Shown in pieces: positions 55,834-63,921 of a stretch of 64,000 nt of DNA. Positions within the stretch are counted from its first letter, which is position 1, and each line of letters begins with the position of its first letter. Source of the stretch: Oscillospiraceae bacterium (lineage in GTDB: Bacteria > Bacillota > Clostridia > Oscillospirales > Acutalibacteraceae); contig JAIRXU010000028.1 of NCBI GenBank assembly GCA_031268095.1, forward strand, positions 19,209 through 83,208. The letters run 5' to 3'. The notes below the pieces were generated by a model. That model was not told where the DNA came from. It ran no database searches and was given only the letters and a program-made list of their open reading frames with translations. Made by a program: the position numbers and the translations under genes.

Positions 55834-57198
55834 TTACCGTCCCTCCATATCCGCATACGGCCGGGCGTCCATAACGCTTTGGTAAGCCGGGCGTATGATT
55901 TTATCCTGATTGATCAGTTCTTCCAGTCGGTGGGCGCTCCAGCCGGCAATCCGGGCAATGGCGAAGACGGGCGTAAAGAGCTCCTGGGGAATCCCGAGAA
56001 TACTGTACACAAAGCCGCTGTAGAAATCAACGTTGGCGCTGACACCCTTATAGATCCGGCGCTTCTCGGCAATGATCTGCGGCGCAAGGCGCTCGACGAC
56101 GGAATACAGCTCGAACTCCGCCCGGCGGCCCTTTTCGGCGGAAAGCTGCTCGACAAATTCCTTGAAAAGCTCTGCCCGGGGGTCTGAAAGGGAATACACC
56201 GCGTGCCCCATGCCGTAAATCAGGCCGCGCCTGTCAAAGTTCTGCCGGTCCAGCAGCCCGGAAAGGTATGCCGCAATTTCGTCTTCATCTGTCAGGTCCC
56301 GGACGTTGCGCTTGAGGTCGTCGAACATCTGCACGACCTTAATGTTCGCGCCGCCGTGCTTCGGCCCTTTCAGCGAACCCAGCGCCGAGGCAATGACAGA
56401 GTACGTGTCTGTCCCGGAAGAGGAGACCACATGGGTGGTGAAGGTGGAGTTGTTGCCGCCGCCGTGCTCCATGTGCAGCACCAGCGCCAGATCCAGGATC
56501 TTCGCTTCCAGCGCGGAATAGGACTTATCCGGCCGGAGCATCCGCAGAAAATTTTCCGCAGCAGAAAGGCCGGGGTCAGGCTTGTGGATATACAGACTGT
56601 CATCACACTCGTAGTGGTTGTAGCAGTGGTACCCGTAAACCGCCAGCATCGGAAAGATGCTGATGAGGTGCAGGCACTGCCGCAGAACGTTGGGGATAGA
56701 GATATCGTCGCACTGCTTGTCGTAGGCCCCGACGGTCAGTACACTGCGGGAAAGCAGGTTCATCATGTCCTGCTGCGGGACCTTCATGATGACGTCCCGG
56801 ACGAAATGGGCGGGCAGCTGCTGGCAGCCGGCCAGGATTTTTTGGAAGCCGGCCAGTTGTTCCCGGTTGGGAAGGTCGCCGAACAGCAGCAGGTACGCCG
56901 TCTCTTCAAAGCCGAACCGGCCCGCCCGCAGGAAACCCGCGCAGATCTCCTTGATGTCAATGCCGCGGTAGCGCAGCACCCCGGGGCAGGATCGTTTTTC
57001 GCCGTCGATGGTCTCCGAGGATATGATGGTGGAAATCTGGGTCAGGCCCGCCCGGACGCCCTCCCCGTTTTTGTCGCGCAGGCCGCGCTTGACCTGATTG
57101 ATCTCGTACAGCGCCGGATCCATACCGTTTTTCTCCGCACAGAGCGCCGCCAGTTGCCGCATGCCGGGTTCATTGCCCAGATTGTTGATGTAGTCCAT
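55834..57198 (-). CDS. Citrate synthase
   Basis: GLTQISTIISSETIDGEKRSCPGVLRYRGIDIKEICAGFLRAGRFGFEETAYLLLFGDLP...LHMEHGGGNNSTFTTHVVSSSGTDTYSVIASALGSLKGPKHGGANIKV. Confidence 0.97.
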   Translation of the reverse strand: MDYINNLGNEPGMRQLAALCAEKNGMDPALYEINQVKRGLRDKNGEGVRAGLTQISTIISSETIDGEKRSCPGVLRYRGIDIKEICAGFLRAGRFGFEETAYLLLFGDLPNREQLAGFQKILAGCQQLPAHFVRDVIMKVPQQDMMNLLSRSVLTVGAYDKQCDDISIPNVLRQCLHLISIFPMLAVYGYHCYNHYECDDSLYIHKPDPGLSAAENFLRMLRPDKSYSALEAKILDLALVLHMEHGGGNNSTFTTHVVSSSGTDTYSVIASALGSLKGPKHGGANIKVVQMFDDLKRNVRDLTDEDEIAAYLSGLLDRQNFDRRGLIYGMGHAVYSLSDPRAELFKEFVEQLSAEKGRRAEFELYSVVERLAPQIIAEKRRIYKGVSANVDFYSGFVYSILGIPQELFTPVFAIARIAGWSAHRLEELINQDKIIRPAYQSVMDARPYADMEGR

Positions 57199-57241: not shown

Positions 57242-57270
57242 ATTATCTCACAAAACGGCCGACTTGTCAA
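57242..57270 (-). promoter_or_regulatory. Promoter of the citrate synthase gene
   Basis: Minus strand TTGACA - 17 bp - GATAAT. Confidence 0.75.
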
Positions 57271-57367: not shown

Positions 57368-58042
57368 TCACCCCTCCGTTTCTTTCGTGTTTGGATTTCT
57401 CTCATGTCCGCCCCAGCCTTTCTGCCGGAAGCTCCGGGGGTCGTGCCCGTCCCTGTCTTGGGGACTGCCGTCCCGCAGCGGGTTCGGGCCAAAGCTCCGG
57501 CAGCCGCCGCGCGGACCGGAAAAATGCCCGCCGAAGGGGCCGTCGTGGAACTCTGCGAAACGTTCGCGCAGCGCCTGCCACTGCTCCAGACGGTCTTCGT
57601 CCCCGCCGAGGGCTTCCTGCATCGCCCCGCTGATGCGATCCAGCAAAGCGCCCAGTGTCTGCTGCTCTTCCGCCGTCAGGCAGGAGAACGGATCCTCTCC
57701 GTCGGCCGGTTCCGGCTGCTGTTCCTGCTTCCCTTTTTCGGTCAGTTTGACCAGCATCACGCGCTTGTCCTCCTCGGAGGGCTCGCGGACGATGAAGCCG
57801 CTCTTTTCCAGCTTGGCAAGCAATTCGTTGAGCGACGAAATCCGCATCCCCAGCAAATAAGACAAATCTTTGGTGCTGATGCCATCCCGCAGTTTGAGAA
57901 AGGCCAGCAGCCGCCCCTGCCCCCTGGTGACGTCGGCCATGGGGCCTCCCCGGGCCCAGCCGCGCAGGCGCTGTTTGTGGAGCAGCCATTGCAGCCGCGC
58001 CAATTTTTCGAGCAATTCTTGATGCATGTCATTATCCTCCAA
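57368..58042 (-). CDS. MarR family transcriptional regulator with Gly/His/Arg-rich tail
   Basis: MADVTRGQGRLLAFLKLRDGISTKDLSYLLGMRISSLNELLAKLEKSGFIVREPSEEDKRVMLVKLTEKGK; tail GGHFSGPRGGCRSFGPNP...GWGGHERNPNTKETEG. Confidence 0.88.
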   Translation of the reverse strand: MEDNDMHQELLEKLARLQWLLHKQRLRGWARGGPMADVTRGQGRLLAFLKLRDGISTKDLSYLLGMRISSLNELLAKLEKSGFIVREPSEEDKRVMLVKLTEKGKQEQQPEPADGEDPFSCLTAEEQQTLGALLDRISGAMQEALGGDEDRLEQWQALRERFAEFHDGPFGGHFSGPRGGCRSFGPNPLRDGSPQDRDGHDPRSFRQKGWGGHERNPNTKETEG

Positions 58043-58052
58043 TCAAATTCTA

Positions 58053-58120
58053 ACGGTACCGTCTAATTTTAGTATAGCAGGTACCGGCAGATTTGTCAAG
58101 TGTTTTTTGCAGGTACCGTC
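58053..58120 (-). promoter_or_regulatory. marR promoter with three GGTACC(G) operator-like sites
   Basis: Minus TTGACA (58099..58094) - 17 bp - TATACT (58076..58071); ACGGTACCGT 58053-58062, GGTACC 58080-58085 (inside the spacer), GGTACC 58112-58117. Confidence 0.85.
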
Positions 58121-58155
58121 AAAAAATTTTTCCGCGATTTTCCGCGATTTGCCCC

Positions 58156-58184
58156 TTGCTTTTTCCCGCCAAAACAGGTATAAT
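58156..58184 (+). promoter_or_regulatory. Promoter of phnXW
   Basis: TTGCTT - 17 bp - TATAAT. Confidence 0.7.
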
Positions 58185-58279: not shown

Positions 58280-59059
58280 ATGCGAAACATCACAACGGTT
58301 ATTTTGGACTGGGCCGGCACTGCGGTGGATTATGGTTCCTTTGCTCCGGTGGAGGCCTTCCAGACAGCCTTTGCCGCCTTCGGCCTTGCGCCGACCCTCG
58401 GCGAAACCCGCGCTCCGATGGGGATGCAGAAGCGGGCGCACATTGCGCAAATGCTGCGGGGGGAGCGCTTGGCCGCCGCTTGGCAGACCGCGCAGGGCAG
58501 ACCGCACACCGAAGAAGACATTGACCATATTTACGCCGCATTTGAGCCCGCGCTGTTTGCAGTCCTGCCGCAGTTCGCCGAACCTTTGCCGGGGGTGCTG
58601 GATGTTATGGCGGCGCTGCGCGCGCGGGGAATCCGCATCGGTTCCACCACCGGTTACACGAAAGCCATGATGGAAGTGGTCGCGCCCTTGGCGGCGGCGA
58701 ACGGCTACGCGCCGGATTGTCTGGTCTGCCCGGACGACGTTGGCGGGACTGGCCGCCCTGCGCCCTATATGCTTTGGCGGAATCTGGAACTGCTCCGCGT
58801 CGGCTCCATCCATGAGGTTTTGAAAATCGGCGATACCGCTGCCGACATGCAGGAAGCCAAAAACGCGGGCTGCCGCTGCGTCGGCGTACTGGTCGGTTCC
58901 AGTATGGTCGGCCTTTCCGCGGAGGAACTGGCCGCGCTGAACGGAGACGCGCGCGAGGCTCTCTTCGCCCGGGCAAAAGAACAATACTTCGCTGCCGGCG
59001 CAGACGACGTGATTCCGGACATCGCGTCGCTTCCGGCCTTTCTCCGGTCCCTGGCATAA
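58280..59059 (+). CDS. phnX: Phosphonoacetaldehyde hydrolase
   Basis: MRNITTVILDWAGTAVDYGSFAPVEAFQTAFAAFGL...MGMQKRAHI...GSTTGYTKAMMEVV...KIGDTAADMQEAKNAGCRCVGVLVGSSMVGL. Confidence 0.96.
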   Translation: MRNITTVILDWAGTAVDYGSFAPVEAFQTAFAAFGLAPTLGETRAPMGMQKRAHIAQMLRGERLAAAWQTAQGRPHTEEDIDHIYAAFEPALFAVLPQFAEPLPGVLDVMAALRARGIRIGSTTGYTKAMMEVVAPLAAANGYAPDCLVCPDDVGGTGRPAPYMLWRNLELLRVGSIHEVLKIGDTAADMQEAKNAGCRCVGVLVGSSMVGLSAEELAALNGDAREALFARAKEQYFAAGADDVIPDIASLPAFLRSLA

Positions 59060-59086: not shown

Positions 59087-60190
59087 ATGTATGAACATAT
59101 TCCTGAAAACCCCTATTTGCTTCTGACCCCCGGCCCGCTCTCGACCTCCAAGGGGGTGCGCGCCGCGCTGCTGCGGGACTGGTGCACCTGGGACGCGGAC
59201 TACAACGAAGAAATTGTGCAGCATATCCGCCGCCGTTTGGTTGCGCTGGCCACGGCGCAGACAGAGGACTACACCGCCGTACTGATGCAGGGCAGCGGAT
59301 CCTTCGGAGTGGAAGCGGCGATTGGCACAGCGCTGCCCCGCGCGGGCGGGAAACTGCTGGTTCTCGCCAATGGGGCCTATGGCCAGCGGGCGGCGACTAT
59401 GGCTCGCACCCTGGAAATTCCCCACACGGTGATCTCCCTGCCCGAGACACAGGCCCCTTCGGCGGCGCTGCTGGAAGACGCTCTGGCGGCGGATTCCGCC
59501 ATCACCCATGTGATCTTCGTGCACTGCGAGACCACCACCGGGATTCTCAACCCTCTGGAGGAATTGGCGGCGGCAGCGAAAGCGCACGGCAAGATCCTTC
59601 TGGTGGACGCAATGAGTTCTTTTGGCGGGATCCCCATGGATGCTGGCGCATGGGGGATTGATTTTCTGATCAGTTCCTCCAACAAATGCATCCAGGGTGT
59701 GCCGGGTTTCGCGCTGGTGGTCGCGAAACGGGACGTCCTGGCCCGGTGCGGGGACAATGCCCGGTCCCACAGCCTCGATCTTTATGACCAGTGGAAAGAA
59801 ATGGATTCCAGCGGAAAATGGCGTTTCACATCGCCCACCCACGTTGTCCGGGCGTTTTATCAGGCGCTGGATGAACTGGAACAGGAAGGCGGCGTGACGG
59901 CGCGGCACACACGCTACCGGGAAAATCACCGGCTGCTGGTGGAAGGCATGGCAGCCTTGGGCTATGAAACCCTGCTGCCCCCCGCGCTGCAATCGCCCAT
60001 CATCACATCCTTCCGCTACCCCTCGCCGGACTTCGATTTCCCGGCGTTTTACCAGTACTGCAAGCGGCAGGGATTCGTACTTTATCCGGGGAAAATTTCA
60101 CAGGCGCCCACCTTCCGCGTCGGCAATATCGGCGAAGTATATCCGGAAGATATGCGTCGCCTGCTGGAGGTCGTGGCCGCCTATCCATAA
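59087..60190 (+). CDS. phnW: 2-aminoethylphosphonate--pyruvate transaminase
   Basis: [46 protein letters not shown]...[19 protein letters not shown]...[37 protein letters not shown]. Confidence 0.96.
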
Positions 60191-63397: not shown

Positions 63398-63610
63398 GGA
63401 TCACCCCCGCATGCGCGGGGAACAGTCTTCAACACAAGCGATTTGCGATTGCGTTCAAGTAAATCACCCCCGCATGCGCGGGGAACAGCCCCGTGAAGAC
63501 CGTCATGCGCACGGTCGGATCAAATCACCCCCGCATGCGCGGGGAACAGACAAATCTTCCCATTTATTTTTCAACTCCTTTCAAATCACCCCCGCATGCG
63601 CGGGGAACAG
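63398..63610 (-). CRISPR. Small type I-E-like CRISPR array, 4 repeats / 3 spacers
   Basis: Repeat CTGTTCCCCGCGCATGCGGGGGTGATTT(G) on the minus strand at 63398-63425 (degenerate end), 63461-63488, 63522-63549, 63583-63610; periods 63, 61, 61 bp; three unrelated spacers. Confidence 0.93.
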
Positions 63611-63671
63611 TCACATAGGAGGTGCTGAAGCCGGTATGCATGGCAGGCCGAAAGGCAAAAATTGTCATAGC

Positions 63672-63706: not shown

Positions 63707-63921
63707 TGATGTAATGGTACTCCGAAAAAGATGCAGGTTAGACGCGGGGGAGGACTTCCGAAAAGAAGGGCGCTGGAGGCGCGGTCTGCCTCCAGCGCAG
63801 CTGTAATGGTTGACTGAAAAAGATGCCTCTGCTTTACAGGCTTTCATCATACAGTCGCGCAACTCATTCACTCGCTGCTGAAAAGTATAGCACAAAGCGA
63901 TGAACATGTCAATCCCCAGCG

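Follow-up and report, generated by a model that had tools for sequence, protein, structure and literature searches.

Local repressors of the MarR, EmrR/MprA and SlyA type in Escherichia coli bind palindromic operators at their own promoters and are often linked to efflux. The protein analyzed here shares with them a winged-helix MarR domain, and its gene, as in the MarR family, has conserved palindromic dyads in the promoter spacer and on the start site. Unlike theirs, its operator is centred on GGTACC and the protein carries a long tail rich in Gly, His and Arg; its best relatives of solved structure (E. coli MarR) match at 7e-7 only. Compared with the marR-drrAB-like operons of other bacteria (G114, L100, L102, G134 and G202, and the Coriobacteriia-type L103 and L104), the locus has the same marR subfamily and promoter layout, but the gene next after marR here encodes citrate synthase, under a predicted promoter of its own, and not an exporter.

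The gene lies in a 64,000-nucleotide stretch of an Oscillospiraceae genome (hereafter, the window), beside genes for the use of 2-aminoethylphosphonate (AEP). Such genes usually have LysR regulators, such as AepR, encoded divergently beside phnWX (PMC10574752). The initial annotation had linked phn genes to LysR and GntR regulators; that paper bears out LysR, and mentions neither GntR nor MarR. Like AepR, the window regulator is encoded divergently and adjoins the phn genes; unlike the LysR-type AepR, it belongs to the MarR family, and whereas AepR provides co-inducer-dependent phn expression, the mode of action proposed here is self-repression by promoter occlusion.

Methods

A protein search of 118 relatives returned five orthologs of the window MarR protein (31-60% identity), and a scan of public genomes with this single protein as the query added six more (53-67%), from uncultured bacteria labelled Oscillospiraceae, other Bacillota, Eggerthellaceae and Coriobacteriia. 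A protein-free search applied the layout TTGAC-N7-12-GGTACC-N14-26-GGTACC to 394 genomes of the order. Operator positions were compared over 17 promoters, comprising the window, the 11 orthologs and five from the layout search, whose pattern presupposes the O2/O3 layout described below. Searches for further targets in the window's own genome used sequence patterns only.

Results

The marR gene (57368-58027, minus strand) encodes a 219-aa winged-helix regulator (Pfam MarR, 6e-11) whose DNA-binding domain (PF01047) scores 42.5 bits (cut-off 24.6) and whose Gly/Arg/His-rich tail is C-terminal; no NCBIfam equivalog reached its cut-off on this protein, and HpaR, OhrR, BilQ, MprA and SlyA all fell far under theirs. 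The Shine-Dalgarno sequence and the starts of orthologs point to ATG 58027, behind GGAGG, as the likely start codon. The downstream neighbour of marR is the citrate synthase gene (55834-57198, from profile matches), ahead of which the consensus scan placed a promoter-like TTGACA-17-GATAAT (57242-57270, minus). Across a common intergenic region of 250 bp, the divergent plus-strand genes are phnX, encoding phosphonoacetaldehyde hydrolase (58280-59059; TIGR01422, 337 bits, cut-off 220), and phnW, encoding 2-aminoethylphosphonate-pyruvate transaminase (59090-60190; TIGR02326, 552 bits, cut-off 401), followed by thrC and the RNase HII gene. Farther along the window, a unit that includes ATCACCCCCGCATGCGCGGGGAACAG occurs four times at 63400-63616 (plus), at a spacing of 61-63 bp, which we read as a short CRISPR array whose repeat resembles type I-E; adjoining it, TGTAATGGT..GAAAAAGATGC occurs twice (63710-63734 and 63802-63826, plus), 92 bp apart.

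The marR promoter (58071-58099, minus) consists of TTGACA at 58099-58094, a 17-nt spacer and TATACT at 58076-58071, and the region reads TTTGACGGTACCTGCAAAAAACACTTGACAAATCTGCCGGTACCTGCTATACTAAAATTAGACGGTACCGTTAGAATTTGATTGGAGGATAATGACATG on the minus strand. A consensus scan retrieved this promoter independently, with 11/12 matches and a TG preceding the -10. Exact GGTACC copies lie at 58055-58060, 58080-58085 and 58112-58117. The distal operator, O1 (GACGGTACCTGC, 58112-58117), stands upstream, separated from the -35 by 12 nt and placed 18 nt above its first base; O2 (58080-58085) lies within the spacer, 3 nt from the -10; and O3 (58053-58062), the perfect palindrome ACGGTACCGT around the first of the three cores, lies on the expected start site and spans about +2 to +12 of the transcript. 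The distances between site centres are 25 bp and 32 bp. The initial annotation had described the same promoter, three GGTACC copies with the palindrome at 58053-58062, and sites in the spacer, past the start and above the -35; on re-reading, its coordinates were exact and all three placements agreed with them.

None of 20,000 dinucleotide shuffles of the 150 bp preceding marR produced three sites, and GGTACC is the sole palindromic hexamer in the window with three copies inside 70 bp, barring a 12-bp CGGCCG run. The hexamer is infrequent in the genome (351 copies in 2.56 Mb), the rest of which holds pairs 8-38 bp apart at two places only (C18 and C63); no promoter-like sequence was found between the copies at either, and no second promoter like that of marR was found in the genome. 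The GGTACC copies clustered at C63:22002-22091 form a tandem repeat and were discounted. The palindrome ACGGTACCGT alone is uninformative, having five exact genomic copies, equal to the reversed control.

The initial annotation had named the GGTACC motif at orthologous marR promoters as a check, and it is present at 11 of 11. These orthologs, for which protein similarity (31-67% identity) was the sole criterion, each have two or three copies within 100 bp upstream, as a rule one adjoining the -10 and one on the start site. The 12 marR genes including that of the window have 27 upstream copies, where 0.46 would be expected in 150 bp and 500 shuffles gave at most 3; a GGTACC pair within 40 bp occurs at 0 of 24 more distant MarR loci. 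The closest MarR proteins are at least 0.86 changes per site from the window protein, a distance over which promoter DNA free of constraint should have diverged.

The TTGACA and -10 hexamers and their spacing at the ortholog promoters are those of the window (TTGACATATCAGACGGTACCGTTTATACTTTGTTCAGACGGTACC in L099 and TTGACAAATGCAACAGGTACCGTTATAATATATGTAACGGTACC in G006 are typical). Measured from where the -35 begins, exact GGTACC falls at +13 to +15 (O2) in 16 of the 17 promoters and at +36 to +40 (O3) in 16, five of the 17 being pattern-selected. O1 occupies position -18 or -19 in 14 of the 17, nine of these with one mismatch, often TGTACC. Three perfect copies are found in the window, L102, L103 and G399, and incomplete sets in G042, which lacks O3, and G086, which lacks the spacer site. 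The G086 marR relative (L045 4661-5905) encodes 414 aa, of which about 200 form a long N-terminal extension, charged and repetitive, ahead of the MarR domain; its promoter is flanked by GGTACC. Operator half-sites in the 17 promoters follow two registers, ACGG/CCGT and ACAGG/CCTGT, which can combine in one site; the palindromes AACGGTACCGTT and AACAGGTACCTGTT both occur, as do mixed forms. The two registers may reflect flexible half-site spacing of the dimer.

The layout pattern matched 12 of the 394 genomes. A -10-like hexamer accompanies seven of these matches, each of which stands before a marR of the window's subfamily; the remaining five have neither such a promoter nor a marR. The GGTACC site is thus tied to MarR from both sides, the protein search finding the sites and the layout search finding marR.

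In 7 of 16 relatives (G114, G134, G202, L100, L102, L103 and L104) the genes immediately after marR encode an ATPase and an ABC2 permease that resemble DrrA and DrrB, respectively, most closely, with those tested scoring under the curated DrrA/DrrB cut-offs; in G246 an ABC exporter pair lies about 0.7 kb downstream. The marR-ABC operon and promoter of L103 and L104, metagenome-assembled genomes labelled Eggerthellaceae and Coriobacteriia, are the same as in Clostridia, which suggests transfer between phyla or misbinning. No DrrA/DrrB-like genes stand directly downstream of the window marR. The nearest match to the exporter permease in its own genome (94% complete) is 24% identical, and no GGTACC occurs in the surrounding 7 kb. 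A poorly resolved tree places the window MarR nearest a set that includes exporter-linked relatives; most of its forks are unresolved, and losses of the exporter link cannot be counted from it. The window marR appears to be an orphan without its exporter partner, and the likeliest history is that the partner was lost and an autoregulated marR left behind, although an exporter gene may be located in the missing part of the genome.

On the phn side, the promoter named in the initial annotation, TTGCTT-17-TATAAT (58156-58184, plus; hexamers at 58156-58161 and 58179-58184), is present as written, but its -35 matches the consensus at 3/6 positions and it did not pass the consensus scan. No GGTACC occurs inside or downstream of this putative promoter, and 38 bp separate its -35 from the end of the nearest site, against the roughly 45 bp first described. 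A direct repeat, TTCCGCGATT-TTCCGCGATT (58130-58150, plus), lies between O1 and the putative promoter and could be the site of another regulator.

Discussion

The region upstream of marR very probably holds a promoter at which a MarR-family repressor regulates its own gene, marR being the only evident target in this genome. The autorepression first suggested by the annotation is strongly favoured by the retention of sites and layout at orthologs and by promoter-like layout matches that belong to this marR subfamily only. A MarR dimer would bind GGTACC-centred palindromes, with a full site of about AACGGTACCGTT or AACAGGTACCTGTT; at O2 it would cover the spacer and the -10, and at O3 the start site, so that joint occupancy would exclude RNA polymerase and repress marR. 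O1 may contribute occupancy or cooperativity, its 32-bp distance from O2 being close to three helical turns and allowing contact on one face. MarR would be freed from the operator by a ligand that is probably a toxic small molecule. In relatives, the same promoter drives marR and the ABC exporter together.

Binding of MarR to these sites is a prediction, and they might instead belong to another regulator or reflect chance or KpnI-like restriction-site clustering. We hold this to be highly improbable, given the shuffling results, the fixed phase of the sites to the -35 and -10 hexamers, their retention across families and two named phyla, and a promoter-like layout found solely before this marR subfamily; the cis-trans co-occurrence of sites and marR makes another factor at the sites unlikely. 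That MarR also acts on unlinked targets elsewhere in this genome, for instance an efflux pump with degenerate sites, is a possibility of some substance, though a doubtful one. One-mismatch sites are kept at O1 in relatives, and 38 genomic places lie within 3 mismatches of TAACGGTACCGTTA, but the reversed control pattern matches more (147), so there is no enrichment, and a search for GGTACC with a -10-like hexamer gave no other clear doubly flanked promoter; at C38:68822 one GGTACC closely follows TATAAT without a flanking dyad.

The initial annotation had also raised control of phnXW by this regulator, with AEP or phosphonoacetaldehyde as ligand. The divergent genes do have one intergenic region in common, and the absence of the usual linked exporter means that the regulator could have been reassigned. 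Yet the three sites sit at marR-promoter positions that are kept in relatives without phnX, and 38 bp above the phnX -35 is an excessive distance for steric block. Synteny of marR with phn genes is found in 0 of 16 relatives, and no GGTACC occurs upstream of phnX in five other genomes (G006, G002, G008, G105 and G117, of which three are congeneric). For the most part, marR and phnX are found in separate genomes: G002 and G008 have phnX without a marR match, G114, G042, G058 and G086 have marR without phnX above the cut-off, and in G006, the only congeneric genome that has both, they lie on separate contigs. Control of phnXW by MarR is therefore unlikely; that MarR governs the operon in answer to either phosphonate compound we consider improbable, and quite improbable that an exporter-linked repressor was orphaned and then taken over for phnXW, a history that, if true, would place phosphonate use under a drug-efflux-type regulator. 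A side effect of MarR on phnX may exist in this strain.

Autorepression by promoter occlusion is an ordinary mechanism, standard for MarR autorepressors. Nothing relevant on GGTACC-type MarR operators was found in open-access papers, and an operator of about AACGGTACCGTT for this unnamed MarR subfamily is apparently undescribed so far. The locus also teaches that a divergent neighbour should not be presumed to be a target. For a MarR subfamily of mostly uncultured Clostridia and Coriobacteriia, the analysis assigns a specific predicted operator and a conserved three-site layout, and it predicts that MarR would control an ABC exporter in many of those bacteria.
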